A DNA stretch of 34,640 bases, taken from contig JADGDH010000004.1 of NCBI GenBank assembly GCA_016745015.1, forward strand, positions 5,140-39,779, read 5' to 3'. Positions 1 to 20,667 of the stretch are shown one piece after another. This DNA is from Colwellia sp. (lineage in GTDB: Bacteria; Pseudomonadota; Gammaproteobacteria; Enterobacterales; Alteromonadaceae). Made by a program: the position numbers and the translations under genes. Every line of letters starts with the position of its first letter. Position 1 is the stretch's first letter. A model generated the notes under the pieces. It saw nothing but the letters and a program-made list of their open reading frames with translations. It was not told the origin of the DNA and did no database searches.

Positions 1-857
1 ATAGTGATACTTGCAGCAACAACAATACGACGTTTAGCTGTCATATGAAAACCAATATAGCCATTTAACCAGAATAGGCTAAAAGCTAGCATTACAGAAA
101 TCAACATTACGAACAATGGTAATATAGAATTGCTAGCGCTATTAAAGCTAACAATACTCTCTAACACATCACTGAACCACATAAGATTGAAAAAGACAAA
201 ACTCACGCCAAGTTGTGCCATCACCCTAGCATCATGCTTACTTAAGTGAGATACCAAAGCGACCCCCGCGGGCCATAGAGCAAACCCTAATGTCATACTA
301 ATTGTCGGTACTAATAACTGACTAAAATTAATTTCTTTTGGCGTGTTTAGATAGAAAACACCCCCCGCGATTAATGTAAATAAAGCAATACTTAATATTA
401 ATGCTACAGGGTGACGCATTAAATTAATAAAACTTTCAAACGGGCTAAAGGTTACCGTTGCTTCTACTGGATGATCTGCAAATAATATTCGTAACTGACT
501 TTTACCTAAAGTGATTACATCACCATCTTTTATTATATGATGATTAGCAGAGCGCTTCTTTTCATTTATGTTTTCAATAAAAGAGCCGTTTACTGTTTGG
601 TTATCGGTAATTTGCCATTGTCCATTAACTTGTTCAATGCTTATGTGACTGGGGCAAATATGAGGATCAGCTAAAATGATATCATTATGATAATCGCGAC
701 CAATATGAATTTGTTCTTGTGACAGTTTATGTCGATGAAGTAACTTATGGTTTCGACTAACTTCTTCAATGATTATTTCTTTTGTTTTCACTCTATCCGT
801 CACTACATCCGTGTCCTCTTCTTCTATGTTCGTTATTTCCATGCTCTCTATTTCCAT
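1..857 (-). CDS. FHA-domain membrane protein (partial, 3' end off window)
   Basis: This reading frame is missing from the ORF track because it runs off the left edge. Translation from the ATG at 857 gives about 285 residues. An FHA (phosphothreonine-binding) domain spans about residues 27-125: IGRDYHND, then S-x-x-H in CPSHIS, then TVNGS, the usual FHA signature order. After it come four likely membrane segments, at about 150-170, 181-203, 213-230 and 244-268. The N-terminal 25 residues are acidic. The start is supported by GGAGG seven bases upstream, lying inside the end of the protease gene, and the two genes overlap by 10 bases, so translation is probably coupled. FHA domains read phosphorylated partners, so a cytoplasmic sensor or scaffold tied to the membrane is a reasonable inference. 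The partner and the missing C-terminus are unknown. Confidence 0.8.
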   Translation of the reverse strand, partial: MEIESMEITNIEEEDTDVVTDRVKTKEIIIEEVSRNHKLLHRHKLSQEQIHIGRDYHNDIILADPHICPSHISIEQVNGQWQITDNQTVNGSFIENINEKKRSANHHIIKDGDVITLGKSQLRILFADHPVEATVTFSPFESFINLMRHPVALILSIALFTLIAGGVFYLNTPKEINFSQLLVPTISMTLGFALWPAGVALVSHLSKHDARVMAQLGVSFVFFNLMWFSDVLESIVSFNSASNSILPLFVMLISVMLAFSLFWLNGYIGFHMTAKRRIVVAASIT

Positions 858-2104
858 GATACTGCCTCCATGAATTGACGAGTAAAGGCTAAAGCATTGG
901 GTTGACTAATGCCTGCAATAGTAAAGTGGCTTACTAACGCTTGTTTGTTTTTGTCTACAGAAGCACTTAAATAAAGGATATCGAATAAATTAGGAAATTT
1001 TTTATAAGCCCGAGTACAAAAAATAGTTTTGTTATTGATAGCTTGGTTGTCAGGTATTACTAAGTCATTATGACATTGATATTCAGTAACATTTTCTTTG
1101 TTTGCTCTATTGCCTGCTCCTGCACGCGCAATATGTTGTTGGTATAAATGGTAAAACTTATTAGCACTTATATTTTTAGCTTTCATAGTACGAAATTCTA
1201 TTTCCATTGTGCCAGTAAAAAAGTGAGAAGAAATATAAGTATTCTCATCTAACGAGCAATTAGCTACAGCTGTTAAAATTAAAGCATCTGCTTTATCTGC
1301 ATTTGAGTCACCCCAGCAGCGAATAAAGGGCACATCAATAATAGGAATAACGCTATTTTCGCCAAGCTGTTTTTCTTGCCATGGGCTATTGAGAATTGAT
1401 GTTATTAACTTATCTTGGCTCGCCATTAGTTGTTCAGCCATTTGTTTTTCTATTGAAGTAGGTGGCGTTTTCGTAAAGCTTTGATAAAGCACTACTAACT
1501 TGTCGTGTGGAACTAAAAATCCGATAGAATTACCTGATGTTGCAACATTAACACCAACAACTTCTGCATTTTTGTTTACAACAGGGCCACCACTCATACC
1601 TGAATTGATTGAGCCAGTAAAATGAATGCGATCGTTAAATGATTCTTTTTTCAAACCATTGTAAGTACCTGGCACAACGATCATACCTAAATCATGCGGG
1701 TTACCTAATGAGAATAATTGTTCACCTTTATGAGGTGTGGCTTGTGATAACTGAAAGAATTTCATTTCTTGTTCAACATCACGTCGAACTAAAGCAAGAT
1801 CATTAATAACATCAACACTTTGTAAGGATAAATCTCCTTTGTTTCCTTCGCCATCAAGATATTCTATTTTGTATTTTTTGGGGTGTAAGGCATAGCTTGA
1901 AATAACATGATAGTTAGTGGCAATAATACCATCACTGCTGATTTGAAAACCTGAACCAATAGATGATTTTTCACCACTGGCTTTGTCTATTAACTTTATT
2001 TGATAAAGAGATGGTTTTAATTGATTAAAAAGTTGTTCTGCTTGCTCTGTGGCATAACTACTACTGCTTAGTAAGATAAATACTAAGCTAAAAAAAACTT
2101 TCAT
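848..2104 (-). CDS. exported trypsin-like serine protease (S1C-type)
   Basis: The 418-residue protein has a clear signal peptide (about 1-18, ending SSYA). A trypsin-fold protease domain follows, at about 25-210. The catalytic triad is visible as H66 in ATNYHV, D102 in INDLALV and S171 in GSINSGMSGGPV, the arrangement of HtrA/DegP-like enzymes. No PDZ domain is evident. Instead there is a C-terminal region of about 200 residues that I do not recognise; it has four cysteines (in RCWGD, ANCSL, YQCHN and IFCTR) that could form disulfides in the periplasm. It is upstream of and overlaps the FHA membrane protein gene, so the two probably act together, for example as a periplasmic protease with a membrane-bound signalling partner. 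The protease assignment is firm. Substrate and regulation are not visible. Confidence 0.88.
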   Translation of the reverse strand: MKVFFSLVFILLSSSSYATEQAEQLFNQLKPSLYQIKLIDKASGEKSSIGSGFQISSDGIIATNYHVISSYALHPKKYKIEYLDGEGNKGDLSLQSVDVINDLALVRRDVEQEMKFFQLSQATPHKGEQLFSLGNPHDLGMIVVPGTYNGLKKESFNDRIHFTGSINSGMSGGPVVNKNAEVVGVNVATSGNSIGFLVPHDKLVVLYQSFTKTPPTSIEKQMAEQLMASQDKLITSILNSPWQEKQLGENSVIPIIDVPFIRCWGDSNADKADALILTAVANCSLDENTYISSHFFTGTMEIEFRTMKAKNISANKFYHLYQQHIARAGAGNRANKENVTEYQCHNDLVIPDNQAINNKTIFCTRAYKKFPNLFDILYLSASVDKNKQALVSHFTIAGISQPNALAFTRQFMEAVSWK

Positions 2105-2354: not shown

Positions 2355-2384
2355 TTGAGTTAGCTTTATTAAAACGAATATAAT
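2355..2384 (+). promoter_or_regulatory. sigma70-like promoter for the TonB receptor operon
   Basis: TTGAGT (2355-2360) and a perfect TATAAT (2379-2384) are separated by 18 bases, about 90 bases before the receptor start codon. The -35 matches four of six consensus positions. Transcription should start near 2391, immediately at the palindrome below. Confidence 0.55.
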
Positions 2385-2392
2385 AGTGTGTT

Positions 2393-2409
2393 TGCGACAT
2401 TTTGTCACA
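2393..2409. promoter_or_regulatory. palindromic operator candidate TGCGACA-TTT-TGTCACA
   Basis: A 7-3-7 inverted repeat with six of seven paired positions lies just after the -10 box, where a bound repressor would block initiation. The regulator is not encoded next to it and I cannot name the family from the motif. It is not a good match to the Fur consensus. Confidence 0.45.
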
Positions 2410-2474
2410 CTGCAAGAATGTAAAATTATTTTATTATGGCGGTAATTTAAATAATCAAAATAATAGCTATCAAC

Positions 2475-4577
2475 ATGAATAAAAAAATAAAAATATCGTT
2501 GCTTTCTCTTCTCGTTAGTCAATATTGTGGTGCTGCTTTTGCAGAAACACCCGTTATGGATGATGAAGCTGCTGGTTTTGAACGAATTACCGTAACCGCA
2601 ACACGTCAAGAGTCTTTAGATACCGATTTAGCAATGTCTGTAAAAGGCGTTGGTAAAGAAGAGCTAGCGCTTGATAATGGTCAGCATGTTGCTGAATCAT
2701 TGAACAGTATTTCAGGGGTGTTAATTGACCAACTTTCGGGTGGTCAAGGCCATAAAGCAGCTATTAGAATGCCAATGAATACAGGTGGTTACTACCTGTA
2801 TTTACAAGATAATATTCCACTGCAATCTGCCGCATTTTTTAATCATAATGCGTTGTGGTGGTCTAGCTTTAATTCAAATGTTGCCCGCATGGAAGTATTA
2901 AAGGGTGCCGGAACGGCACTTTATGGTTCAGGTGCTGTAGCAGCTACAGTAAATATTTTATCCGCTGATGTAGCCGAATCACCACAAACCAGTATTGATT
3001 TAATGCTAGGTGAAGATGAGTACACGAAAGTACAAGCTAGCCATAGTAATAAAATATCTGACACTCAGGGTTTTCGAATTGCAGGTTCATATTTAAAAAA
3101 TGACGGCTGGCGTGATCATACTGGCTCTGAACGTGGTGAGTTAACTTTTCGCCATGAACTTGATTTAGGTGATAATGAACGCTTAATTACGTCTTTTGTT
3201 GCCTCAGATCTTGAGCAGGAAATGGCGGCAAGTTTAACAGAAGATTTATATGAAAATGATAAAACTAATTCAGGCCTTTCAGATACCGTTTTAGCTAGCG
3301 ACCCGTTGAGAAAAACACAGTATATGCGCCTTTCAACACAATGGGATAAAGCGGATGGAAATAACTTTTATTCAGTTATTCCTTATTATCGTTATCGTAC
3401 CAATGACTATACCGCCACTTGGAATCAAAACATGCCGAAAGTAGAATCTGAAGTGCAAACTTTAGGTTTATTAGCCTTAGCAAACTTTGAACACAGTAGT
3501 GATAGTGAAACAACTACAGGGATAGATATCGAGTTGACAGAAGGTGATCAACTTTCTTATCAGCCACTTGATTTTACTACCTCTGGTTGGGGTGCAGATA
3601 CTTTTGTAAAAGGGGAAAAATTCTATGATGATACAACTCAGTTTATCAGTATATCTCCTTATATTCAGCACAAGCGTAGCTTAACTGAAAAGCTTGATTT
3701 AACTCTAGGCGCTCGTTACGACTATGCTAAATATGACTTTGATAATCACTTAGGGATTTATGGCGATATTGGTCATGGCAAAATAAGTGTAGAAAACAGA
3801 AGTGATGATTTTAAACATTTTAGCCCTAAAGCAAGTTTAAACTATCATTTAACTGAAGATAGCAGCGTTTATGTTCGTTATGCCAATAGTTTTCGCTTAC
3901 CTACGGCAGGCAGCATATATCATTTAACCGTGAAAGATGATGGTGATGCAAAAGCGGTAGATCCTGAAACGTCAGATACTTACGAGCTAGGTTATAAAGC
4001 GAACTGGAAAACAGTTACCTTTGATACGGCTATTTATTATATGGATGTTGATGACGGTATTGTTCACGCTTATAACGATGATGGTCAACGTTATTTAACC
4101 AATGCTACTCGTGTTATCCATAAAGGAGTTGAAGCATCCATTTTATGGCAAATTACTGAGCAATTAAATATTAGTACTGCTTATAGCCAATCTGAGCATG
4201 AGTTTGATGAACATGAGAAATATGCTGGTAATGAAATGTCAGCTGCTCCTGATTATATTGCTAATGTACGTGTGCGTTACATGCCTGATTTCTTGCAAGG
4301 TTTTACTGCCATGTTAGAGGTGCAATCTATTGGTGAGTACTGGTTAGATGATGCTAACAGTCAAGATAGTGAAGGTAATGATCGCATTGAAGATGGCTAC
4401 ACTATCGGTAACTTAAAAGCGCGTTATCAGGTATCTGAGCAACTTGCATTTCATGCTAGAATATTGAATATTTCTGATGAAGAATATGCACAAGAAGCAT
4501 CTTATCGATATGGCAAAACACAGCTTTCGCCTGGTGCACCAAGAACAGCCTATGTTGGCTTAAGTTATAATTGGTAA
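2475..4577 (+). CDS. TonB-dependent outer-membrane receptor
   Basis: The 700-residue protein begins with a signal peptide (cleavage after AFA, residue 23). A TonB box follows (ERITVTATR, residues 36-44), then a plug domain to about residue 160, then a long beta-barrel ending in aromatic W, as expected for outer-membrane insertion. The plug carries MEVLKGAGTALYGSGAVAATVN, the conserved TonB-receptor plug motif. It imports a substrate across the outer membrane using TonB energy. The plug also has a Met/Tyr/His/Trp-rich stretch (RMPMNTGGYY, NHNALWW) that could contact a metal or chelate, but the ligand cannot be read from the sequence. It is first gene of a three-gene operon; the next start codon is ten bases after its stop. 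No strong Shine-Dalgarno is seen before its ATG. Confidence 0.9.
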   Translation: MNKKIKISLLSLLVSQYCGAAFAETPVMDDEAAGFERITVTATRQESLDTDLAMSVKGVGKEELALDNGQHVAESLNSISGVLIDQLSGGQGHKAAIRMPMNTGGYYLYLQDNIPLQSAAFFNHNALWWSSFNSNVARMEVLKGAGTALYGSGAVAATVNILSADVAESPQTSIDLMLGEDEYTKVQASHSNKISDTQGFRIAGSYLKNDGWRDHTGSERGELTFRHELDLGDNERLITSFVASDLEQEMAASLTEDLYENDKTNSGLSDTVLASDPLRKTQYMRLSTQWDKADGNNFYSVIPYYRYRTNDYTATWNQNMPKVESEVQTLGLLALANFEHSSDSETTTGIDIELTEGDQLSYQPLDFTTSGWGADTFVKGEKFYDDTTQFISISPYIQHKRSLTEKLDLTLGARYDYAKYDFDNHLGIYGDIGHGKISVENRSDDFKHFSPKASLNYHLTEDSSVYVRYANSFRLPTAGSIYHLTVKDDGDAKAVDPETSDTYELGYKANWKTVTFDTAIYYMDVDDGIVHAYNDDGQRYLTNATRVIHKGVEASILWQITEQLNISTAYSQSEHEFDEHEKYAGNEMSAAPDYIANVRVRYMPDFLQGFTAMLEVQSIGEYWLDDANSQDSEGNDRIEDGYTIGNLKARYQVSEQLAFHARILNISDEEYAQEASYRYGKTQLSPGAPRTAYVGLSYNW

Positions 4578-4587
4578 AGGAAGTATT

Positions 4588-5847
4588 ATGCCCATACTTA
4601 TTTATAAATCATTATTTTTGACCGTGTTTGCTTCATTATTGCTTACTGTAAATAACAGTGTTGCCGTAGAGCATAATCACCAAGCAACACTCGCAAAAGA
4701 AACATCAGCAAAAATGATGCAAACAGATAACTGTGAAGCAACAGATATTACTTGTGCTAAAACCGTTACTTCAACATTTGCGCCAAATGGTGATTTATGG
4801 CGTTTATGGGCATTAAACTCTAACCTCTATTTTCAAATATCAACGGATAATGGCTTAAAATTTTCAGCGGTTAATAATATTGCGATAGATAAAGAAAAAA
4901 TATCAGCCCGCAATGAAAACCGACCGAAAATAGCTTTCGATAAGTATCAAGGCGTTTATTTGTCATGGGCAACACCAAAAGAGAAAAAATATACTGCAGA
5001 TGTACGTTTTTCCTATTCTAGTGATTATGGTAAAACATTTACCAAGCCAGTAACCGTTAATGATGACAACTTGCTAACAGGACATAGCTTTAATGAAATG
5101 TTAGTAACCGATGAGGGTGACATTAGCATTGTTTGGCTTGACTCACGTTTAGCTTATCAGCTTCGAAAAGAAGGGAAGAAAACAAATGGCTCAGCATTGT
5201 ATATTGGCAGAGCTAATTATAGAAAAAATGAAACAAATTTTTCTAATGAGCAGTTAGCGAATAATACTTGTGTTTGTTGTCGTATCGCTATGAATTATAA
5301 TAATCATGGCGAGTTAGCAATATTATGGCGACATATATATGGAGATAATATTCGCGAGTTTGCTTTGTTAACATTAGCTCAAGGCGAAAACGCACAAAAA
5401 ATACCCTACCAAATAAGTTACGACCATTGGAAAATTAATGGCTGCCCTCATCAAGGTGGCGCTATTAGTATTAATGGCAATAACCGCTACCATATGGTGT
5501 GGTTTAATCAAGGCGATGCAGGGAAGGGGATTTTCTATGCCTCAAGTAATGATCAAGGACGAACATTAACAAAGCCTATTTCTGTAGGTGTGCACTCAGC
5601 TCAAGCTGCTCACCCTCACATGAATACAAATGGTAATAATATAGACATCGTTTGGACACAGTTTAATGGCACCGAGCATGAATTATGGCACCAACACTCA
5701 ACAGATAATGGAAAATCGTTTACTGCTGCAATAATGTTAGCTACGGCTGATAACGGCTCTGACCGACCATTTATCATTAAAAAAGACAATGTTAGTTATG
5801 TATCATGGCACCGTCCTAAGCGAGGACACTTGGTACAAGTATTATGA
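4588..5847 (+). CDS. exported Asp-box (sialidase-like) beta-propeller with CxCC motif
   Basis: The 419-residue protein has a signal peptide (about 1-26). At least four Asp-box repeats of S-x-D-x-G-x-x-F/L type are visible: STDNGLKFS (85), SSDYGKTFT (144), SNDQGRTLT (320) and STDNGKSFT (371). This predicts a sialidase-fold beta-propeller. I do not see the arginine triad context needed to call a true sialidase, so the enzyme name should not be used. Six cysteines stand out for an exported protein: C49, C56, a CVCC cluster at 228-231 and C286 in NGCPHQGG, near several histidines. These suggest metal binding or disulfide chemistry. AAGGAAG precedes the start. The stop overlaps the next gene's start as ATGA, so this protein and the thioredoxin-like protein are translationally coupled. 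Confidence 0.78.
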   Translation: MPILIYKSLFLTVFASLLLTVNNSVAVEHNHQATLAKETSAKMMQTDNCEATDITCAKTVTSTFAPNGDLWRLWALNSNLYFQISTDNGLKFSAVNNIAIDKEKISARNENRPKIAFDKYQGVYLSWATPKEKKYTADVRFSYSSDYGKTFTKPVTVNDDNLLTGHSFNEMLVTDEGDISIVWLDSRLAYQLRKEGKKTNGSALYIGRANYRKNETNFSNEQLANNTCVCCRIAMNYNNHGELAILWRHIYGDNIREFALLTLAQGENAQKIPYQISYDHWKINGCPHQGGAISINGNNRYHMVWFNQGDAGKGIFYASSNDQGRTLTKPISVGVHSAQAAHPHMNTNGNNIDIVWTQFNGTEHELWHQHSTDNGKSFTAAIMLATADNGSDRPFIIKKDNVSYVSWHRPKRGHLVQVL

Positions 5848-6326
5848 GCTTTATAAGAAAGACTAATTGTATTTTACTTGTTGTATGTTTGTTTTTTGCC
5901 AGTAATATCAATGCAAATTCTATAGAATTTAGTAAGGAGCAATGGGTTAAAGTAAAGAAACAAAACATGGGAAAACAATGGTTAATATTATTGTGGTCAA
6001 TTGATTGTCCTGCATGTTTTAAAGAGTTAGCAATCATTCAAACATTACAAAAGCAACATAATGACTTAGCCGTGGTAATTATTAATACTGATGCTAATGA
6101 TGAAATAAATGAAGAGCGTATTGAAATAATAGAAAAGTTTGAATTGGGTCATTTTAACAACTTCCATTTTGCTGATGGTAAAGGTGATCAGAGTCGATTT
6201 TTTATTGACCCTACTTGGTACGGTGAATTACCGCGAAGTTATTTTATTGAAAGTAATGGTAAGTTTCATGGTAAAAGTGGGTTAGTGAAAGAGTCATTGT
6301 TAACACAATGGCTAGTATCTCAATAA
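5844..6326 (+). CDS. exported thioredoxin-fold (TlpA-like) protein, CPAC motif
   Basis: The 160-residue protein has a signal peptide (about 1-25) and a thioredoxin-like domain. The active site CPAC is at residues 55-58, preceded by LLWSID, and the cis-proline loop appears as GELPRSYFIE near the C-terminus. Such TlpA/ResA-like proteins reduce disulfides or handle metals in the periplasm or on membranes. The ATGA overlap with the Cys-containing propeller gene makes that protein its likely client. This client relation is inference. A terminator follows 38 bases after the stop, ending the operon. Family assignment to thioredoxin fold is secure; the exact subfamily is not. Confidence 0.82.
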   Translation: MSFIRKTNCILLVVCLFFASNINANSIEFSKEQWVKVKKQNMGKQWLILLWSIDCPACFKELAIIQTLQKQHNDLAVVIINTDANDEINEERIEIIEKFELGHFNNFHFADGKGDQSRFFIDPTWYGELPRSYFIESNGKFHGKSGLVKESLLTQWLVSQ

Positions 6327-6363
6327 TAATGTGTATTTCTATTGGATAAAATCATCTAGTGCA

Positions 6364-6400
6364 CGGCTATTTTAGTTTATCTAGCCGCGTTGCTTTTTTT
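6364..6400 (+). terminator. Rho-independent terminator of the receptor operon
   Basis: CGGCTA (6364-6369) pairs with TAGCCG (6382-6387), followed within a few bases by seven Ts (6394-6400). Confidence 0.6.
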
Positions 6401-6879: not shown

Positions 6880-7359
6880 CTAGTTAGCGTTGTTTATTTG
6901 AAGAAAAAGTGTATTTTCAATGCCAATATCAATAAAACCATATTGTCGATAAAATTTATCCATACCATCTAAATAATGCACTAAAATTGCGGCACAACCT
7001 ATTTGTGCAGACACATTTTCTATTCTTTCAATAGCATTAACTAACATGGCTTCACCTAAGCCTTTTCCTGAGTGATTTATATCAACGGCTAGTCTGCATA
7101 ATATGGCTATTGGAATTTCATTTGGTGCATTACGCTGTAACGTTTTTGGAATGTTTTGTCGTTTAATTGTTCCCATTGCTGTTGAATAATATCCAACAAC
7201 TGTATTGTTATTGGTGCTAACAACAAATGTTTGAGTGAACCCTTTACTCGAATTACGCAGCGCTTTTTTTAATAGCCAACTATTTAAAGAAGGCACCCCA
7301 CAATCAAAATTATTTGTTACATGTTCTTTATTTATTGCAGTCGGTGAATTTAGCTCCAT
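6880..7359 (-). CDS. GNAT acetyltransferase toxin (TacT-like)
   Basis: The 159-residue protein is a GNAT-fold acetyltransferase of the type that pairs with DUF1778 antitoxins and acetylates charged tRNA to stop translation. The acetyl-CoA loop is HSGKGLGEAM (96-105), preceded by ILCRLAVD, and the catalytic tyrosine context FYRQYGF places Y140 where known family members have theirs. Its start overlaps the antitoxin end by ten bases, the usual antitoxin-first arrangement. Length and motifs are intact, so the toxin is probably functional. The tRNA target is inferred from family knowledge. Confidence 0.9.
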   Translation of the reverse strand: MELNSPTAINKEHVTNNFDCGVPSLNSWLLKKALRNSSKGFTQTFVVSTNNNTVVGYYSTAMGTIKRQNIPKTLQRNAPNEIPIAILCRLAVDINHSGKGLGEAMLVNAIERIENVSAQIGCAAILVHYLDGMDKFYRQYGFIDIGIENTLFLQINNAN

Positions 7360-7625
7360 GGTTTAGTTTTACTTAATGCTTTACTTAGCTTTTCATTAGC
7401 AGTAAATGGTTCTTGCATCAATTGAGTGAAACGCTCAAACGTACTGTCACAAAGAGCATGCTCTCTGCGATCTAAAAGCACTTCTTCTGCGTATTCAGTT
7501 GCAGTAGAAAGCATAAAATCAGTGCGAGATATATTGAGTAGTTTGGCCGCCTTATCTATTAGATCTCTTTTTATTGGTGGTGCTTTTAACTGTATACGTA
7601 CGGTATTGACTGAAAGTGTAGACAT
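7350..7625 (-). CDS. DUF1778 (TacA-like) antitoxin
   Basis: The 91-residue protein has an N-terminal ribbon-helix-helix region (VRIQLKAPPIKRDLIDKAAKLLNISRTDFML) and a charged C-terminal tail that would wrap the GNAT toxin. DUF1778 antitoxins bind their own promoter and neutralise the partner. AGGAG lies seven bases before the ATG at 7625. A palindrome overlapping the predicted -35 is listed separately. The pair lies between a full and a partial yjbR copy, which points to acquisition as an accessory block. Confidence 0.9.
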   Translation of the reverse strand: MSTLSVNTVRIQLKAPPIKRDLIDKAAKLLNISRTDFMLSTATEYAEEVLLDRREHALCDSTFERFTQLMQEPFTANEKLSKALSKTKPWS

Positions 7626-11304: not shown

Positions 11305-12417
11305 TTATGCAATGATATGAGTTAGGTGATTATCCCATTTTAAGCCTGAAAAACTGGAGCTTTTTACACTGTTGCTATCACCATTTTGACTGCTGCGAGC
11401 CAGTTTGCTTGTAATAAAATGCCCCTTGCCACTAGTAGCGTATATTTTATCTATATAAGTTAACCCCGCACCATCAGAAAATTTTTCACTACTTAGATAT
11501 TCATCATTTTTTAAAGACCAATAGGTGATTAAATCAGCTCTAGGGCAACTAATGGCGGAAATATCTAACTTATCGTCAATACAAACGCTAGCAGTGTATT
11601 GATTCATTTGTCGCCATATGTGTTCACTTGCTGATAAATAGGTTAGTGACCCTTCGCCATGGTGAGAAATAGCGAGAGGTACTAAGTCTGTTTTAGCTCC
11701 TTGGTATTGTAGCCCTGCGATTACTTTCCCTTGCTTACTTACGGATAAATGGCGAATGCTGAGTTTATGGTTGTCTAAAGAATATGCCCCTTCAACTTTA
11801 CCTGAGTTAATATTCAAGTAAGCAAGGTTAGATGCCATGGTATCAATGTTGAGTTTTTTACGTGGCTGTTCTGGATGGGTTTGAATACCGCCATTAGCAA
11901 TAACAATAGAGTTGCCATTAGGCATTAGCTTTAATTGGTGTGGCCCAATGCCACCAGAATAATATTGCTCAAGTACTTGATAGGTTTGTGTATCGCGTAC
12001 AACAATAAGACCATTACCACTAGCAAAGTCATTTTCGCTTGTTAATAGTACATTATGCTTTTCAGAGATAATCCCATGGCCATAAAAGTGGCTATGGCTT
12101 TGAGCTGAAATCTCATGTGTTATCACACCGTTAATAAAGTCAATTTCGAGCACAAAAGTACCAGGCCGCCTTGCAAAAACTAATGCATGCCCAGGTTTGT
12201 TTGGTATAGCTATAGCGTCATGTCCACGGGCAGGTAGTTTAATTTGACTAATGATTTGACCATTTAAATCAAAAGCAGCTACGAAGTGCTCATTGTGTTT
12301 GTTAGTGCAAGCACTCACTAACCATTGTTTTTCGCTTTGGGCAAAAGGTATATAACCGATGGCTGCAGCAGAACTAGTTGCGGCAGCGGCTATTAAAAAT
12401 TGACGACGAGTTAGCAT
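11305..12417 (-). CDS. DUF1513 protein, Tat-exported
   Basis: The 370-residue protein begins with a twin-arginine signal (TRRQFLIAAAATSSAAA, RR at 4-5), so it is exported folded, often meaning a cofactor is bound first. The rest reads as a beta-propeller-like DUF1513 domain: GRGHDAIAIP, FYGHGIISE, GIGPHQLKLMPNGNSIVIANGGIQTHP. This family is regularly found beside imelysin and di-heme genes in iron-uptake loci, as here. Its biochemical role is not established. It is 25 bases after the TonB receptor stop, so it is in the same operon. Confidence 0.85.
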   Translation of the reverse strand: MLTRRQFLIAAAATSSAAAIGYIPFAQSEKQWLVSACTNKHNEHFVAAFDLNGQIISQIKLPARGHDAIAIPNKPGHALVFARRPGTFVLEIDFINGVITHEISAQSHSHFYGHGIISEKHNVLLTSENDFASGNGLIVVRDTQTYQVLEQYYSGGIGPHQLKLMPNGNSIVIANGGIQTHPEQPRKKLNIDTMASNLAYLNINSGKVEGAYSLDNHKLSIRHLSVSKQGKVIAGLQYQGAKTDLVPLAISHHGEGSLTYLSASEHIWRQMNQYTASVCIDDKLDISAISCPRADLITYWSLKNDEYLSSEKFSDGAGLTYIDKIYATSGKGHFITSKLARSSQNGDSNSVKSSSFSGLKWDNHLTHIIA

Positions 12418-12442
12418 AATAACTACTCCATCTTTTGTTTAA

Positions 12443-14713
12443 TTAAAAGGTATATTTAATGCCAACAATAGCTTGACGTGGTTTGCCTGATCTCGCGCCA
12501 AAAGGTCGACGTGAAACAATAACAGCTTCGTCAGTTAGGTTATCAATTTTACCGTAAATTCTTATTGAATCATTTATCTGATACCAAGATGAAAAATCTA
12601 TTTGTTGAATATCATCGGTGTAATAACCTTCAAGCTCTGTTGCGGTACCCGCAGCTTCTAACATCTCTTCAATATATTTGAATAATAATGATACTTGCCA
12701 ATCTTCATGGGTTAAAGCAACTTCTACACTAAGTTGGTTTTCAGGTAAATAGGGTAATTCATCACCCTTGGTAACAGTTCCCCACTGAGAAAAGTTAGAG
12801 TGAAAGTTGTTTTGAAATTCAGATTGAGTAAAGGTATAAGCAATATTAATTGGCATTTCAATGCTATCAGTAATATCAAAGTGCGTATTAAGACTAGCTT
12901 CTACGCCATATACTTCAACTTCGCCGCCATTAAACTCTTGCCCTAAATCTTCTTGGCAACCATTAGCAAAGGTACAATTTCCTTTTAAGTTAGCATAGTC
13001 ACTATAAAAACCGACTAACTCTGCTTTAGTACTGGTATCGCTATAGCGAAGGCCAAATTCATAATTCCAGCTTTCTTCTGGATCTATGCTGTCATCTTGC
13101 CCTGGGCTGTTAGGTACATAACCTTTGTTAACTCCAAATAAAACACCTAATTGCTCAGTAATTATGTAAAAAGCACCAAAACCAGGCATAACCACGGTAG
13201 TGTCATTTGTTGATCTACTTTCTTCTATACCTGTACCTAAATTAAAGTTAATCGCTTCGCCTTCAATATATTCAACACGCACACCAGCGCTAAGGTTAAG
13301 TTGACCAAAATCTAGATTAGCATTGGCATAGGTTGCAAATGCGGTAGCGGTATCTTCATTAAGGGTAATTATTTTCCTATTACCAATAAGCGCTAAGTGA
13401 CCACCTTGCATAGCATATTCATCTTGTCGATGATTTCTCGCCACTTGATCTTGATGAAGCCTGACACCAAAGTCCATCGCTAAATTAGCATCAAGCCAAC
13501 GGGTATCCCAAAATAATTTAGACTCAATACCTTGAGAGTAGAATTTTCTATCATTTAAGGTGAATAATAAGTGCTCTTGGCTTGTTAATGTATCTCGTTC
13601 ACCTTTGAGTACTTGCATAAACAAAGTATTCACACCTGTATCGGGTGAAGTTAAAATAGTTGCCATACTTCTGTTGGTATTGAAGCTGTTAAATCGATCC
13701 CAATCTCTGTCAAAGTCACGACGATAAGCTTGGGTGTATATGCTAATGTCACCACTTAATTCAATATAATGAGATAGTTGAAATTGATAATGTTCCCAAT
13801 CCATTTTGTCATTTTCACTAGCAACATAGCGGCGAGTAGGTGATTGGGAAAAATCAGCATCGGTTAAGCCTAAATAGGTTTCATGGGAAACTTCTTCACC
13901 ATAGCCCATTTTAAACTGCCAAAACTGATAGTGCTCTGTATTCGACGGGATATAATTAGCTTTGAAAATCACTTCACTTTTATCAAAGCCAGTGTCTTTA
14001 CTTGTTTCACCATTAGTGTCTAACTCTTTAAATCCATCTGATTTTATTGTAATACCTTCAAGTAAAAAACCTAGCTCGCCAATATCTTCTATGTCATAAC
14101 TCTCGCTATAAAAACCATGCGCTTTTTGATAATTAGTTTCACCATAGGCTAAATCAACTTCTGCCTGCCTGCCATCGTCAACACTGACTACCGAGCGAGA
14201 TACCATATTAATAGCGCCGCCGACAGTATTAGGGCCATATTTAATAGCAGCAGGGCCTTTGAATATTTCCACTTGGGTCATGCGTGAAATTAATGGGAAA
14301 TAATAAGCTGCTGGAGCTGCATAGGCGGCTGGCGCAATAAGTACGCCATCTTCCATTAAGGCAATTTTACTACTGCGTTCTGAAGTTGCGCCACGTAAAC
14401 CAATATTAGGACGTAAGCCGTAACCATCTTCTTCACGAATATAAACACCAGGCACTGATTGCAAAACTCGATGAATATCATCAAACTCGTTGAGTTCCAA
14501 TTGTTCTTCGTTTAATACAAAAGCTGAGCCAATGGCTGTTTCTAGTTCGTTGCGTTGTCCAAAAATACTAATGACTTCTATTTGTTTTTTTGTCGTTTCA
14601 GTACGATTGTTCTTTTTTTGGTTTTGTATTTCTTGCGCGTTTGTTGCCTCTTGTGCGAAGGTCGAACAAGAGCAAGCTAGCATTAACGAAAGGGCTAATT
14701 TACTTACTTCCAT
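12443..14713 (-). CDS. TonB-dependent siderophore/ferric receptor (FecA-like)
   Basis: The 756-residue protein has a signal peptide (cleavage near TFA|QE) and a TonB box near IEVISIFGQ (about 44-52). The plug has DDIHRVLQSVPGVYIREEDGYGLRPNIGLRG and FKGPAAIKYGPNTVGGAINMVSR, typical of the FecA-type group. A beta-barrel follows and ends in TF. The YGLRPNIGLRG plug motif points to ferric-citrate or siderophore import, but the ligand is inferred. It lies between the imelysin/di-heme genes and DUF1513, supporting an iron role. The 64-base gap upstream is compatible with operon transcription. Confidence 0.88.
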   Translation of the reverse strand: MEVSKLALSLMLACSCSTFAQEATNAQEIQNQKKNNRTETTKKQIEVISIFGQRNELETAIGSAFVLNEEQLELNEFDDIHRVLQSVPGVYIREEDGYGLRPNIGLRGATSERSSKIALMEDGVLIAPAAYAAPAAYYFPLISRMTQVEIFKGPAAIKYGPNTVGGAINMVSRSVVSVDDGRQAEVDLAYGETNYQKAHGFYSESYDIEDIGELGFLLEGITIKSDGFKELDTNGETSKDTGFDKSEVIFKANYIPSNTEHYQFWQFKMGYGEEVSHETYLGLTDADFSQSPTRRYVASENDKMDWEHYQFQLSHYIELSGDISIYTQAYRRDFDRDWDRFNSFNTNRSMATILTSPDTGVNTLFMQVLKGERDTLTSQEHLLFTLNDRKFYSQGIESKLFWDTRWLDANLAMDFGVRLHQDQVARNHRQDEYAMQGGHLALIGNRKIITLNEDTATAFATYANANLDFGQLNLSAGVRVEYIEGEAINFNLGTGIEESRSTNDTTVVMPGFGAFYIITEQLGVLFGVNKGYVPNSPGQDDSIDPEESWNYEFGLRYSDTSTKAELVGFYSDYANLKGNCTFANGCQEDLGQEFNGGEVEVYGVEASLNTHFDITDSIEMPINIAYTFTQSEFQNNFHSNFSQWGTVTKGDELPYLPENQLSVEVALTHEDWQVSLLFKYIEEMLEAAGTATELEGYYTDDIQQIDFSSWYQINDSIRIYGKIDNLTDEAVIVSRRPFGARSGKPRQAIVGIKYTF

Positions 14714-14777
14714 ATTGATTATCCAGTGATTATGTTTGGTTTTAATAGGTCAATGTTATCTTTTATTTAATAATGGG

Positions 14778-15953
14778 CTAATCACCATCATTTGAGTTGA
14801 AGCCAATATTGATATCTGTTGCTTGGATAAAATCAGCAGTGATCACATCTCTAAGCTCCCGAATTTTTTGTATTGCTTCTGTAAGTTGTACTCGGCTAGT
14901 TTCATCATTAAGTAGCTCGGCATAACTCATATTGCTATCTAAGGCATTTAATGCTGTAGAAATTGCCGAAATTTTAGTTGTTATCTCCGTGCTTATAGCT
15001 GGTTGGTCAAGATGGTCGGTTAAAATATCATCAAAACCATGACCATTATTAGCAGTGAATAGTTTGTTAAAAGTTTTAGCGTTAATTTTTACGCTCGCAA
15101 TTGAAGCATCACTTAATACAAATTCGGCAATGGTAGGAATACCAGGTGCGTTAACTGCTAAGGGCTGTAATAATTTTTCATCTTTAACGCGCTCTACTTG
15201 CTCTAACCAGTTGGTAATCAATTCCTCAACAGCATCTTTTTTGCTAGTGAATTCTCCTGTGCCCGCAGTAAGTGATGCGACATAGTTGCCGCCAGAGCTT
15301 TGCCATTCGGTATTAACATCGTTAGTAATATTAGCTAAGTTTTCACTAATTGCTTGCACTGCTTCACAGCGCTTTTCTTTGTCACTCGCTGCTAATAAGG
15401 AATCTTGCACTGCATCGGTGAACAATAAAATTTCTAGAGCTGGAATGCCTTGACCACCAACATTCTTACTAGAAACGTAATCAGCGGTTAGTGGCTCAGC
15501 TGTAAGAAGTAAATTATTTAACCCATTTTCTACGGCATTATTGCTATCAGGCCAAAATTCAATTCTGAAGTTGCGACTACTTTCAAGTACAGGGCCTACC
15601 TTTAACCACTGAATGTCTTGCCAACTAGCATTAAAGTCAAACCAACTTTGTTGTAAAGAGTGTAAATCACTATTATTTGCACTGTTAAGTGCACAAAAAG
15701 TTGTACTTTGCGCGGACAATGCTTGTGCTTTAGTCTTTAAATCCTGATAACTTGGCAAAATAAAATTATTAGATAAATCGGTTAACCATAAACCGAATTG
15801 CTCATCATCAGTTGATGTTGTCGGTGTTGTTGGGGTTGTTGGGGTAGTCGGTGAGTCTGAACCACCGCCGCCACAAGCTGTTAAAATAAAAGATAAAAGT
15901 ATTGGTGTTAAAATGTTAACAGGTGCTTGTTTGGTAAAATAAGACATAATCAT
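14778..15953 (-). CDS. imelysin-family (M75) lipoprotein with degenerate GxHxxE
   Basis: The lipoprotein (391 residues as given) has the lipobox LTAC followed by GGGG and a TTPTTPTTPTT linker, then an imelysin domain with WFDFNASWQDIQWLKVGP and RNFRIEFWPD. Where the other imelysin in this window has GYHAVEFLLW, this one reads GIPALEILLF, so the metal-motif histidine is a proline. I recall a GLPALE-type subfamily, so this may be normal for the branch. Imelysins are exported proteins of iron uptake. The true start may be the third codon (ATG at 15947), because AGGA lies six bases before it. The upstream di-heme gene stops only two bases before the annotated start. Confidence 0.85.
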   Translation of the reverse strand: MIMSYFTKQAPVNILTPILLSFILTACGGGGSDSPTTPTTPTTPTTSTDDEQFGLWLTDLSNNFILPSYQDLKTKAQALSAQSTTFCALNSANNSDLHSLQQSWFDFNASWQDIQWLKVGPVLESSRNFRIEFWPDSNNAVENGLNNLLLTAEPLTADYVSSKNVGGQGIPALEILLFTDAVQDSLLAASDKEKRCEAVQAISENLANITNDVNTEWQSSGGNYVASLTAGTGEFTSKKDAVEELITNWLEQVERVKDEKLLQPLAVNAPGIPTIAEFVLSDASIASVKINAKTFNKLFTANNGHGFDDILTDHLDQPAISTEITTKISAISTALNALDSNMSYAELLNDETSRVQLTEAIQKIRELRDVITADFIQATDINIGFNSNDGD

Positions 15954-15955
15954 TC

Positions 15956-17416
15956 CTATATTGACTTTAGAAACATCAACAGCGCTTGGCGTTGATCTTT
16001 AGTTAATTGTTTGAATTTTTCTTGCGCAGTTTTTGCTTCACCGCCATGCCATAAAATAGCTTCGGTAATTGTTCTTGCTCTACCATCATGTAAAAAGCGT
16101 TGTTGACCAGTAATTGTTTTTTGCAAGCCTATTCCCCATAGCGGTGGCGTGCGCCATTCGGATCCTGTGGCTTTAAATTCATAAACACCGTCGGCCAATC
16201 CTTCGCCCATATCATGCAAAGCTAGATCGGTATAAGGCCAAATAGTTTGCCCAGATAAAGCAGGAACATGATAATTTTTATCAGTTGTATAACTCGGAAT
16301 ATGACATTGAACACAACCTAGCTGATGAAATAATTTTTGCCCCTGCTGCTTTTTAGGTTGAGATAAACTGCGTGCAGGTGGTACGCCTAACAAACCGTTA
16401 AAGCTGATTACCAAATCAAGTAATTTATCTGGTATTTCAACACTTTTGTGTCCACCTAACTCACTAGCTTGTTGGCATAATATTTGTTTTTTGGTACATG
16501 ATTCCATAGGGAAATAACTGTTGGTAATACCTATATCATCCCTAAATGCTGCTGCAACTTGTTGAGCAAGGTTGGGATGCTTTGCTTTTAAACCAAAACG
16601 ACCTATTTCAATATCACCATTTTTCACATTGGGAACGCGGTTATATTTTGCTGAAATACCATCATTATTAATATCTTTGCTATCTTCTTGCGCTAATAAA
16701 TCGTTATCACTAATGGCATCAAGTAAACCCGCACCAAAAATATTTGGTGCGAACCTTGGAGAAGGAAAAATATGCTCAGGTAGTTCACCATAGCCTAAAC
16801 GTGTTAGTTCATAACTTGGTTTTTGCAATTGATAGACTTCGCCATCACTAAATTGACCATTAACAGGGCTATAACTGAGTTTTAACCATGCTTCACTGTT
16901 AGGTGAATTGTTATGCTGCCCATGAACAAATTTAGTAACTCGTGGTTGAACTTGCCCACCGTAAACATTGTTTTCATGATTCATATTTGGTTTGTTAAAA
17001 CCGAGACGAATGGTTAATGCTGTTGGTAAGCTTTCACCTGTCTCTGACATACCAGCACGAGCACCAGCCTGATGACATGCAATGCAAGATCTAGCGTTAA
17101 ATAGTGGACCTAATCCATCTCGGTCTTTGGTAGCACTAGGCGCGGTTACCCAAGGATCTCTAAACAGTGAAAAACCTGTCCAAAAGGCAAGCTGCTGTTT
17201 TTGTGTTGCGCCTTCTCCAGCATACACAAAACTACGTTTAGATAAACGCCTAACTGTCATATTACCGCCAGCTTTTGTTTGCGATGCTAATAGTTCCTTA
17301 TTAAGAACATTATATTCATTGGTTGCTGTTAGTGTCACAGGTGATGCGGTTAGGTAGGCAGCAGTGATTACCGTTATAATCACTGCTGTTGAAATAACCA
17401 TTTTTACTTTTTTCAT
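15956..17416 (-). CDS. di-heme oxidoreductase (DUF1111 family)
   Basis: The 486-residue exported protein has an N-terminal membrane/signal segment (about 6-25) and two c-type heme sites, CIACH (111-115) and CVQCH (about residue 370). It has the family hallmark FLHDGRARTITEAILWHGGEA near the C-terminus. DUF1111 proteins are periplasmic c-type cytochromes, related to MauG-type di-heme enzymes, that occur with imelysins in iron loci. Here it probably handles electrons for iron release or oxidation at the cell surface (inference). Its ATG directly abuts the TAA of the second di-heme gene (17416/17417) with no spacer, so the pair is coupled. Confidence 0.88.
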   Translation of the reverse strand: MKKVKMVISTAVIITVITAAYLTASPVTLTATNEYNVLNKELLASQTKAGGNMTVRRLSKRSFVYAGEGATQKQQLAFWTGFSLFRDPWVTAPSATKDRDGLGPLFNARSCIACHQAGARAGMSETGESLPTALTIRLGFNKPNMNHENNVYGGQVQPRVTKFVHGQHNNSPNSEAWLKLSYSPVNGQFSDGEVYQLQKPSYELTRLGYGELPEHIFPSPRFAPNIFGAGLLDAISDNDLLAQEDSKDINNDGISAKYNRVPNVKNGDIEIGRFGLKAKHPNLAQQVAAAFRDDIGITNSYFPMESCTKKQILCQQASELGGHKSVEIPDKLLDLVISFNGLLGVPPARSLSQPKKQQGQKLFHQLGCVQCHIPSYTTDKNYHVPALSGQTIWPYTDLALHDMGEGLADGVYEFKATGSEWRTPPLWGIGLQKTITGQQRFLHDGRARTITEAILWHGGEAKTAQEKFKQLTKDQRQALLMFLKSI

Positions 17417-19090
17417 TTATAATGACTCAACAAAATCAATAAGTTGCTGGCGCTCTTCTTGGCTAAGAGCCATAAATGCTTCTTTGCGTGATTCTGCTTC
17501 ACCATCGTGCCATAAAATAGCTTCTTCTATGGTTCTTGCTCTACCGTCATGTAAGAAGGTCGCCTTTGGATTTACGGTTTTGACTAAGCCTATTCCCCAA
17601 AGTGCAGGTGTTTTCCACTCTGAACCAGAAGCATCACCTTGAATTAAGCCATCAGCTAGCCCATCACATCGTTGCACATACATACATTCTGCACCTGTCG
17701 TACATGAATCACCAATATCTGTTTCACGTGTGACGACACAAGATCCACCCATATCATGAAGTAATAAATCTGTGTACGGGAAAATAGTTTGCTCAGATAA
17801 CATAGCAATAGGCTCAGCATTTTCTTCTAAGCCTGTTAGTGTTAATTTACCTAACACGCTACCCTTAGCTTCACCCGTTACATGCCTAGGAGTATGACAA
17901 TCTACACATTGAGTATCAAAAAATAACTTTCTACCAGCAATGATATTTTCATCCCAAGTGCTATTGTTTTTATCAAAACCTCGGCGAGCAGGCACGCCTA
18001 ATGTTCGGTTATAAAATTCAACCAGTGCTAAGTTTTTATCAGAAAAATCATGTTCGCTACCTACTTTACTTTCTTGATCTGCAGCCATTTGACAAGCTTG
18101 CTGTTGTTCAGTACAAGACTCGTTAGGAAAAATACTATTAGAAATACCGATGTCGCCACCATAAGCACCAGCTACTTGCTGTAATACCGATGTATTTTGT
18201 GCTTTATAAGCAAAACGTCCTAGTTTTGTTTCACCGCTAAATACATCAAGTGCCATAGATGCTCGACCTGAAATGTCATTTCCATCGGTATCATTTTCAT
18301 CAGCTAAAGAAATAATGTTTGCAGCAGGAATTGCATCTAGTAAGCCAACACCAAAAGCTTGTGGAGCTATACGGACAGAAAAGCGAATGTTTTCCATAAA
18401 TAAACCAAAGCTTAAATTTTTAATTTTGTAAATTGGATTTCTTAATTCATAACTGGTGCCATCGGGATATGTACCATTAATTGTTTCATATACGATGAAC
18501 GGGAAGGCTTCACCATATAACTCTGTACCGTTAATAGAGCCATCGTGAATAGATATACCAGAGCTAAAATCAGGCGTTTTAAAGCTTTGTACAGCGAAAG
18601 GTTGTAATTGGTCACCATAAATTGGGTCAGCTGCACCAGTGTTATTGCCTAGTTTAAGTAACATACTTAACATAGGTGCTGTCGGTGATGCTGGTATGTT
18701 ACCTCGCCCGTCATTTATGTGACAACCTTGACAACTCCCCGTACTTAGCATGGGACCAATATCTCTATCTGGCGTACGAAACAAATGATCACCTGAAGTG
18801 AAAAAACCATCTAATTTAAAATTGTCAGCAATCATTTTCGGACGTGTACTAAAAGCATCTTCGTTATTTTTAAACACTGTTGCATCACCACCAGGTAAAT
18901 GTTCTTTAGGATCAACAGTATTATTGATTAATGGGGATAAACCACTGTGATCAACAATTGGTTCTGGTGTTGGAGTAACGACAGATTTTGTTTCATTAGA
19001 TCCACCGCCACCGCATGCTGTTAAGGCTATAGAAAGTACACCTAATATTATGGTGGGTTGGATACTTGAAAAATAGGACTTGTTTTTCAT
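17417..19090 (-). CDS. di-heme oxidoreductase (DUF1111 family) lipoprotein
   Basis: The 557-residue protein has a lipobox ALTAC (lipidated C26) followed by GGGG. Heme sites are CQGCH (120-124) and CVDCH in the C-terminal half, and FLHDGRARTIEEAILWHDGEAE closes the family signature. It is longer than its neighbour because of a Cys-rich insert, CVVTRETDIGDSCTTGAECMYVQRC, which the 486-residue paralogue lacks; six extra residues of this kind could form disulfides or contact a partner. It is probably anchored to the outer membrane. It is the first gene after a strong terminator, so it needs its own promoter or readthrough. Confidence 0.88.
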   Translation of the reverse strand: MKNKSYFSSIQPTIILGVLSIALTACGGGGSNETKSVVTPTPEPIVDHSGLSPLINNTVDPKEHLPGGDATVFKNNEDAFSTRPKMIADNFKLDGFFTSGDHLFRTPDRDIGPMLSTGSCQGCHINDGRGNIPASPTAPMLSMLLKLGNNTGAADPIYGDQLQPFAVQSFKTPDFSSGISIHDGSINGTELYGEAFPFIVYETINGTYPDGTSYELRNPIYKIKNLSFGLFMENIRFSVRIAPQAFGVGLLDAIPAANIISLADENDTDGNDISGRASMALDVFSGETKLGRFAYKAQNTSVLQQVAGAYGGDIGISNSIFPNESCTEQQQACQMAADQESKVGSEHDFSDKNLALVEFYNRTLGVPARRGFDKNNSTWDENIIAGRKLFFDTQCVDCHTPRHVTGEAKGSVLGKLTLTGLEENAEPIAMLSEQTIFPYTDLLLHDMGGSCVVTRETDIGDSCTTGAECMYVQRCDGLADGLIQGDASGSEWKTPALWGIGLVKTVNPKATFLHDGRARTIEEAILWHDGEAESRKEAFMALSQEERQQLIDFVESL

Positions 19091-19219
19091 TGTTATTGTT
19101 CCACTTCAGCTTCAATTAATAATTATGATTACTTGTAACTATAAAAGTTTTTTTTATTTGATATATTGATCTTAATCGCAAATGTTAAAGATAACTATTG
19201 TTATTCTTTATTAGAAAGG

Positions 19220-19247
19220 AAAAAATAGGCTCGAAAGCCTATTTTTT
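19220..19247 (-). terminator. strong bidirectional hairpin terminator after the first imelysin gene
   Basis: AAAAAATAGGCT pairs perfectly with AGCCTATTTTTT around a four-base loop. On the minus strand the loop reads TTCG and six Ts close the stem. It lies 32 bases after the imelysin stop and would separate that gene from the di-heme genes, or set their ratio by partial readthrough. Confidence 0.8.
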
Positions 19248-19278
19248 AGCAAAAATGCATTATATAACTACATTAGCT

Positions 19279-20667
19279 TTAAATGTCTTCTTCAGTATCT
19301 TGACGAATATCGCCAGCTGATACACCTAAAGCATCTATTGCTTGTTCAATTTCATCTGTTTGCTTAACTAAAGCTTTAATTACTGCCACAACATTTGGTT
19401 GTTCAATACCTTCTTGAATCAATACATCAAACGGTGTACCTGTTTTCGCTTTAGTATCAACAACGGCAGCAGCAGACATTGTAGCTTCTAAAGAACCACG
19501 TAAAGAATTTGCTAGTTCGTGATCACCACCAACAACTAATAAGTCGTAGATAGATGCACCCGAAATTACTTCGCCATCAATACGTGTGTATTGTGCGTTG
19601 AAAGTATTTTGAACACCTTTAGCATTTAAGAAAATATCTCTGTGAGTATTATCACTAAAACATGAATGTTCATCTTCTTGTGAATCAGTAGTTAGGGCTA
19701 TGTTGATGCGCTCACCTGCTAACTCACCAAAACTTAAACGACCCATACCTTCTAAAATTTTAGCTAAAGATACATCTCCACCAGTAATGAATGCTTTGTA
19801 GTGTGTACCTGTAACAGGTTCCCATGCGTTAACAATAGGCTCTAAATCAGCAATAAGTAAATCAGCTACGGCAGTTAAATATTGACCACGACGAGTACAT
19901 GTTGTTGGTGTAACAGTGTTACCAGCACCAGAAGTACAAGTGCCGTCAAGTGCATAATCAGTTACAGGACGTTGACCACCACTGCTATCACGAGTACCTG
20001 CACCAGCTAGATCTGTATTTAAATCTTGCCCCCAAAGTAAAAATTCAACTGCGTGATAACCCGTTGTTACATTACGCTCATCTTCACCATGCTCAAAAGC
20101 ACCTGCAATAGATGCGGCATCAATGGTTGGGAAATCAGTAGTGTTAGCTATAATATTGTTTGCTAAGGCATTAGCTGGAGTTTCAGGACCAGAATCACCA
20201 TCTACTTCTACAGCAACATAATCAATAATTGCTTCACCTAAAGGCCAAGCATTTATTTTACCTTCAGGGCCATCGCCTTCTTCACCAATAGTACCATCAT
20301 CTTTTAGCGCATCAATTGGTCCTACACGAAAGCGATAAACTTCAGTTTGTCCGTATGGTTCGCGAGAATCTATCCATGCTTTCTTCGCTGCTTTCATGTT
20401 GATTTCATTGGGTAAAGCAACAAAAGTAGTAATTGCCGTACGTAATGATTGTGCGGCAATAAGTGAGTCAGAATAAGCCGCATAAGCAATATTGGCATTG
20501 GTTTTCAATACGTCATCGCGTGTTACAAAAGTACTTACACCGTTAGTGCCATTAGCACCATTTTCGCCAGTAATACCTGCTTGACCATCATCACCATCGT
20601 CAACACAAGCAGTTAAAGAGCATGCCATAAGTAAAGCAACAGATACTTTTTTAAGGTTAAAGTTCAT
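19279..20667 (-). CDS. imelysin-family (M75) lipoprotein
   Basis: The 462-residue protein has a lipobox SLTAC (C21) and then a short collagen-like run GQAGITGENGANGTNG (28-43, five Gly-X-Y triplets). The imelysin domain follows, with the intact metal motif GYHAVEFLLWGQDLN (203-217), KKAWIDSREPYGQTEVYRFRVGPID and FGELAGERINIAL. Such proteins sit in the outer membrane or periplasm and belong to iron-uptake regulons; related M75 domains occur in EfeO. It has its own promoter and terminator, so it can be expressed more strongly than the rest of the locus. Confidence 0.9.
   Translation of the reverse strand: MNFNLKKVSVALLMACSLTACVDDGDDGQAGITGENGANGTNGVSTFVTRDDVLKTNANIAYAAYSDSLIAAQSLRTAITTFVALPNEINMKAAKKAWIDSREPYGQTEVYRFRVGPIDALKDDGTIGEEGDGPEGKINAWPLGEAIIDYVAVEVDGDSGPETPANALANNIIANTTDFPTIDAASIAGAFEHGEDERNVTTGYHAVEFLLWGQDLNTDLAGAGTRDSSGGQRPVTDYALDGTCTSGAGNTVTPTTCTRRGQYLTAVADLLIADLEPIVNAWEPVTGTHYKAFITGGDVSLAKILEGMGRLSFGELAGERINIALTTDSQEDEHSCFSDNTHRDIFLNAKGVQNTFNAQYTRIDGEVISGASIYDLLVVGGDHELANSLRGSLEATMSAAAVVDTKAKTGTPFDVLIQEGIEQPNVVAVIKALVKQTDEIEQAIDALGVSAGDIRQDTEEDI

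Follow-up and report, generated by a model that had tools for sequence, protein, structure and literature searches.

The locus studied here lies in a 34,640-nucleotide stretch of a contig (JADGDH010000004.1) from a marine Colwellia sp., referred to as the window. Three consecutive plus-strand genes, termed the cassette in the following, encode a TonB-dependent receptor (TBDR), a beta-propeller protein and a thioredoxin-like protein. The features are:

2393..2409 (+): 17-base palindrome TGCGACATTTTGTCACA, a RegR/RegA-like putative operator, from aligned upstream regions
2432..2437 (+): -10 element TATTAT, at +38 counted from the first G in the core of the palindrome
2475..4577 (+): TBDR, 700 aa (PF00593, 149 bits; PF07715, 43.6 bits)
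4588..5847 (+): exported beta-propeller, 419 aa, with CxCC (228-231) and WxIxGCP (281-287), from AlphaFold, Foldseek and conservation
5844..6326 (+): exported TlpA/ResA-like thioredoxin, 160 aa, with WSxDCPAC and an LPRS cis-Pro region, from weak profile matches and a model
6364..6400 (+): possible intrinsic terminator, a CGGCTA/TAGCCG stem followed by a T run, from the sequence, with a weak fold

The three open reading frames, the gap of 10 bases between the TBDR and propeller genes and the ATGA overlap of the propeller and thioredoxin genes (5844-5847) agree exactly with the initial annotation, and its view that all three proteins are exported agrees with a signal-like N-terminal segment on each. 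Its terminator is retained in part: stem and T run are present, but the hairpin is weak (-9.9 kcal/mol, z = -1.29), which makes a terminator plausible, not compelling. The promoter originally assigned to 2355-2384 (TTGAGT-18-TATAAT) is unconserved in relatives, and matches of this type occur close to chance (24 found vs 18.7 expected); this assignment is probably wrong. Judged from the -10 element listed above, transcription is expected to start near 2444.

A search for the three families together in other genomes had been suggested, and they do recur: the trio is kept as an operon in about 20 Gammaproteobacteria. The propeller is present in 11 of 296 genomes of the order, own genome included, and the nearest loci outside this genome are from Colwellia (82% identity). 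Of the nine closer relatives within the order, eight have the receptor, propeller and thioredoxin genes in a row, most of them also with the 4-base propeller/thioredoxin overlap, and the ninth has propeller and thioredoxin. The trio is likewise consecutive in 11 of the closer loci from the genome-contig scan described below. It was found in Shewanella hanedai, Litorilituus, Pseudoalteromonas denitrificans, Kangiellaceae and others. Seen from the receptor, at least 50% identity is reached in 11 of 395 genomes of the order, and the propeller adjoins the receptor in 10 of these. In the exception (G016), the orphan receptor retains the operator, and no propeller or thioredoxin remnants were found behind it. 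Since the three genes recur together in relatives, their arrangement is beyond chance.

The mature TBDR is free of cysteines, and the receptors of different cassettes share 50-57% identity. Its best PDB matches are YncD/PqqU and its best NCBIfam matches generic siderophore and haemin models, all with scores far below the family cut-offs. Membership in the OprC/NosA copper receptors was considered and rejected: the TBDR reaches 32.7 bits with TIGR01778, where membership needs more than 472 bits, and the CxxxM and HxM copper ligands are absent from the eight receptors inspected. The next receptor relatives (28-31% identity) precede PepSY_TM genes, two of three with the palindrome.

The propeller protein has seven repeats, and seven of its Trp residues are spaced by about 55 residues. 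Profile matches were limited to sub-threshold BNR hits, and a PDB search with its sequence found no relative. The AlphaFold model (pLDDT 89.7) is closest to sialidases (E 1e-10) and to seven-bladed PLL/PHL lectins in Foldseek. C228, C230, C231, C286 and the NGCPH motif are present as first described, and three of the sialidase-type Asp boxes fit the strict pattern S/T-x-D-x-G-x-x-aromatic. An alignment-based scan of genome contigs returned more than 550 relatives, of which 80 were kept, among them Alphaproteobacteria, Nitrospira, Bacteroidetes, Acidobacteria, Planctomycetes and others. The family is large, uncharacterised and mislabelled as "sialidase"; the database label is "sialidase family protein". 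Across 75 sequences, C228, C230, C231, C286, R248, R256, W281, F168 and W183 are invariant, confirming the conservation of the cysteines, and for H166, D185 and R187 conservation is 96% or higher. For the cysteines, W281 and P287 the invariance follows in part from the search itself, because the retrieval patterns and the filter contain both cysteine motifs; for H166, F168, D185, R248 and R256 it does not. Both motifs occur in 92 of 93 loci, though either pattern alone sufficed for retrieval. Reading the strand order of the secondary structure in the model, we infer that H166, C228-C231 and C286 lie on successive loops leading into the inner strands of adjacent blades, on one face. The gammaproteobacterial propellers have two extra N-terminal cysteines, and in most of them the mature protein starts with a His-rich segment (HNHQ, HKHH, DHSKH). 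In three proteobacterial MAG loci (L059, L074, L101), two or three CxCC paralogues, some of them divergent, are found side by side.

The third protein, described from the outset as a CPAC thioredoxin-fold protein coupled to the propeller, has weak Redoxin, ResA, DsbE and TlpA-type profile matches. Its AlphaFold model (pLDDT 92.1) matches ResA, StoA, CcmG, TlpA and TlpA-ScoI complexes in Foldseek. With an exported thioredoxin fold, a CxxC motif and a cis-Pro it belongs to the TlpA/ResA-like proteins; W51-S52-x2-C55-x2-C58 and P130 are invariant in 21 such thioredoxin-like proteins.

The centre of the palindrome lies about 73 bases before the TBDR start. Allowing no more than one mismatch, its consensus, TGYGACAnnnTGTCRCA, precedes 19 of 21 cassettes, a level that shuffled upstream regions reach in 0.3% of cases. 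The exact core has just two copies in the Colwellia genome, one before the cassette and the other 65 bases before a receptor with OprC as best PDB match (7.8e-21). This second receptor has an ACxNxM stretch, the same as the OprC stretch that holds two copper ligands (PMC8610252). In 150 genomes of the family, the raw genome-wide count is only slightly above that of a reversed control (87 vs 75), but 56 of 87 exact sites are intergenic, compared with two of 30 sites of the reversed pattern (p = 2e-8). The signal is position, not number.

Forty-three distinct promoter sites were assigned to target genes, partly by family scan and partly by close sequence likeness to scanned members. Fourteen precede OprC-type or TonB-copper receptors (nine of which were scanned by name against family libraries), nine precede nosR (three scanned by name), six cassette receptors, four other receptors (siderophore- or haem-like), three Met/His-rich MetA-like outer-membrane proteins, and two MbnP genes; the remainder comprise two PepSY_TM-like proteins, one cytochrome bd subunit and two others. 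The MetA-like proteins behind RegA-type sites (L125, L129 and L169) carry the signature DHxHxxGEWM[IV]SYR[YF]M and are candidates for copper-related outer-membrane proteins. In 38 of 58 palindrome promoters a -10-like hexamer (TAnnnT) is found at +38 or +39 from the core, and the palindrome would therefore be located near -43, the position of an activator.

When compared by eye, the palindrome agrees at 14 of 15 positions with the published RegR box GNGRCRTTNNGNCGC (PMC5506826). In Bradyrhizobium, RegR controls copCAB and binds to the promoter of nosR (PMC4064962), a known RegR target (PMC5506826, PMC4064962). RegB/RegA-like genes adjoin the cassettes in L022, L035 and L041, and in the Colwellia genome a RegB/RegA pair is encoded elsewhere (L230:712-2506). 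RegA was detected in all 27 propeller-bearing genomes searched vs 55 of 198 genomes of the order. Among the 150 family genomes, 39 of the 42 that have an intergenic site also have RegA, vs 46 of the 108 others, the p-value of this association (p = 4e-9) being inflated, like others of its kind, by kinship of the genomes. RegA is no more than 10 kb away from 17 of 87 palindrome sites, but from only one of 75 control sites. With a RegA-type box in its promoter and RegA in its genome, the operon is a predicted member of a RegA regulon. As members of the RegA family sense redox or respiration, such membership is no proof of a copper substrate.

Some further genes around the cassette deserve mention. 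Upstream, the window encodes a trypsin-like protease (848-2104, minus strand). In four genomes (L178, L181, L185, L186), genes for homologues of this protease diverge from adjacent copper receptor genes that carry the palindrome, and in three Colwellia-type loci (L028, L031, L032) a homologue adjoins a copper-type receptor located immediately before the cassette; in L028 a class D beta-lactamase-like gene (1523-2359) is located between protease and receptor. Downstream, a small overlapping gene pair (6880-7625, minus strand) probably represents, as far as the sequence shows, a GNAT-toxin/DUF1778-type toxin-antitoxin pair. The minus-strand cluster at 11305-20667, probably a second metal-uptake locus, contains DUF1513, a TonB receptor, an imelysin (M75), two di-haem oxidoreductases (DHOR) and a second imelysin; a similar DUF1513-receptor set is found behind the cassette of Litorilituus (L030).

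Outside the cassettes, propeller genes occur in copper gene clusters of many phyla. Cus, CopA or multicopper-oxidase genes occur at 26 of 64 distant loci, within fetched stretches of up to about 7 kb on each side, and these include Bacteroidetes, Acidobacteria and Lysobacterales. On Roseobacter plasmids the propeller gene is found among genes for CopA-type ATPases, multicopper oxidase, azurin, TolC and CusAB, and in L058 it lies inside a cusA-cusC-propeller-cusB run. More than half of the distant propellers (64 loci) are away from copper genes, and most of those at copper loci accompany efflux, not import, genes. A TonB receptor is found near the propeller in Nitrospira, Acidobacteria, Bacteroidetes and Lysobacteraceae loci.

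The initial annotation had read the operon as an import system for a thiophilic metal or metal chelate, naming copper as one possibility, with a metal-binding propeller and a redox partner for its cysteines. Apart from its promoter, this reading has gained in favour of copper, through the promoter element common to copper receptors, MbnP and nosR and through the copper-efflux neighbourhoods of the distant propellers. Copper as the metal concerned is well supported by these sequence comparisons, and import is the likely direction. With moderate confidence, we propose that the operon is activated by RegA and takes up copper, as such or as a chelate, to supply respiratory cuproenzymes, with the propeller accepting Cu(I). 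A RegB/RegA-type two-component system would activate the operon via the palindrome, and the TBDR would import copper. A small Cu chelate is the most likely cargo, because the TBDR lacks the OprC ligands and its next relatives stand beside PepSY_TM, as does CrtA. In the periplasm, the propeller would receive copper on the thiolates C228, C230, C231 and C286, presented on loops of one face together with H166, D185, R187, R248, R256 and W281. The TlpA/ResA-like protein would maintain the cysteines in the reduced state needed for Cu(I) binding, and the propeller would pass the copper on to haem-copper oxidases and, in relatives, N2O reductase. Possible recipients are the products of two genes for haem-copper oxidase subunit I in the Colwellia genome.

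The propeller might instead be a redox enzyme that reduces Cu(II) or opens Cu(II) chelates, releasing Cu(I) into the periplasm, with electrons from the TlpA-like protein or, in Roseobacter, from cytochrome c. The invariant or nearly invariant residues H166, D185, R187, R248, R256 and W281 resemble an active site. A TlpA-like gene directly precedes the propeller in six distant loci, Bacteroidetes among them, and a c-type cytochrome gene does so in most Roseobacter loci. However, the propeller has no known cofactor motif, and its neighbours vary, with several distant propellers lacking a redox-gene neighbour; we regard this explanation as rather unlikely. As a wider and tentative hypothesis, the CxCC/GCP propellers may represent a new phylum-spanning class of periplasmic copper proteins, possibly copper reductases or chelate-openers, which would serve both import and efflux and be powered by TlpA-like proteins or cytochrome c.

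It is improbable that the module serves copper detoxification or sequestration, with the propeller as a periplasmic sink and an incidental receptor. The copper genes at 26 of 64 distant loci and the cus operon of L058 would fit such a role, but the first gene of the cassette encodes a TonB receptor, the promoter element is common to uptake receptors, MbnP and nosR and sits at an activator position, and the surroundings of the gammaproteobacterial cassettes showed no recognisable efflux gene. Slightly more doubtful still is that the receptor imports another cargo of redox or respiratory metabolism (haem, a siderophore or a PQQ-like cofactor), the promoter association with copper then reflecting RegA only. 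The YncD/PqqU, siderophore and haemin matches and the four RegA-type sites before siderophore- or haem-like receptors are in line with this, but none of these receptor scores comes near its family cut-off, and the propeller family is linked to copper independently of RegA. For a sialidase or carbohydrate-binding role of the propeller the probability is vanishingly small: the label, the Asp-box propeller fold and the sialidase and lectin matches suggest it, but the FRIP motif, which in GH33 sialidases accompanies a catalytic Arg triad, is absent from 75 of 75 propellers, sialidase activity being rejected on this ground, and the conserved cysteines and the copper context also speak against it. 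A literature search for propellers or sialidases linked with copper returned nothing relevant.

Outer-membrane copper import is poorly understood, and the trio offers a testable set of genes for its study. The findings also suggest a likely function for the hundreds of proteins that carry the labels "exo-alpha-sialidase" or "sialidase family protein". From the palindrome operator, a copper/N2O-respiration regulon can be predicted for marine Gammaproteobacteria. The connection of copper uptake with nosR is relevant to marine N2O emission.

The statement that the trio matches no named system still holds, though in operon style it resembles the CrtA-type TonB-dependent copper transporters published in 2022-2026, known from the CruR-CrtA-PepSY_TM operon of Bordetella pertussis, where CrtA imports a copper chelate for haem-copper oxidases (PMC12914433, PMC9426467). 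The likeness is one of style: both are small TBDR-led operons whose TBDR has no conserved Cys, and the next relatives of the cassette receptor, as mentioned above, precede PepSY_TM genes. The CrtA-type arrangement, with PepSY_TM and often a cruR gene (DUF2946) in first place, is not that of the cassette. No DUF2946-like ORF precedes the receptor in the ORF list of the window, and sequence inspection recognised no gene of this kind beside the other cassettes; DUF2946 was also looked for, and not found, in the gene before the G077 receptor. Instead of PepSY_TM and CruR, the cassette has the propeller, the thioredoxin and a RegA-type operator. With OprC/NosA (PMC8610252), the cassette has in common the palindrome-bearing promoter, present before OprC-like receptors of the same and related genomes, whereas the CxxxM-HxM site is absent from its receptor. 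In Bradyrhizobium, TlpA reduces ScoI and CoxB before these receive copper (PMC6696091). A similar pair of a periplasmic TlpA-type reductant and a cysteine-based copper protein is proposed for the cassette, but the partner is a beta-propeller, not Sco/CoxB, and the thioredoxin is divergent (about 20% identity). The RegB/RegA regulons (PrrBA, ActSR, RegSR), finally, share with the cassette an operator in agreement with the RegR box and nosR among the targets, whereas the targets of the cassette-type palindrome, a putative operator in the Alteromonadales, are dominated by copper receptors.
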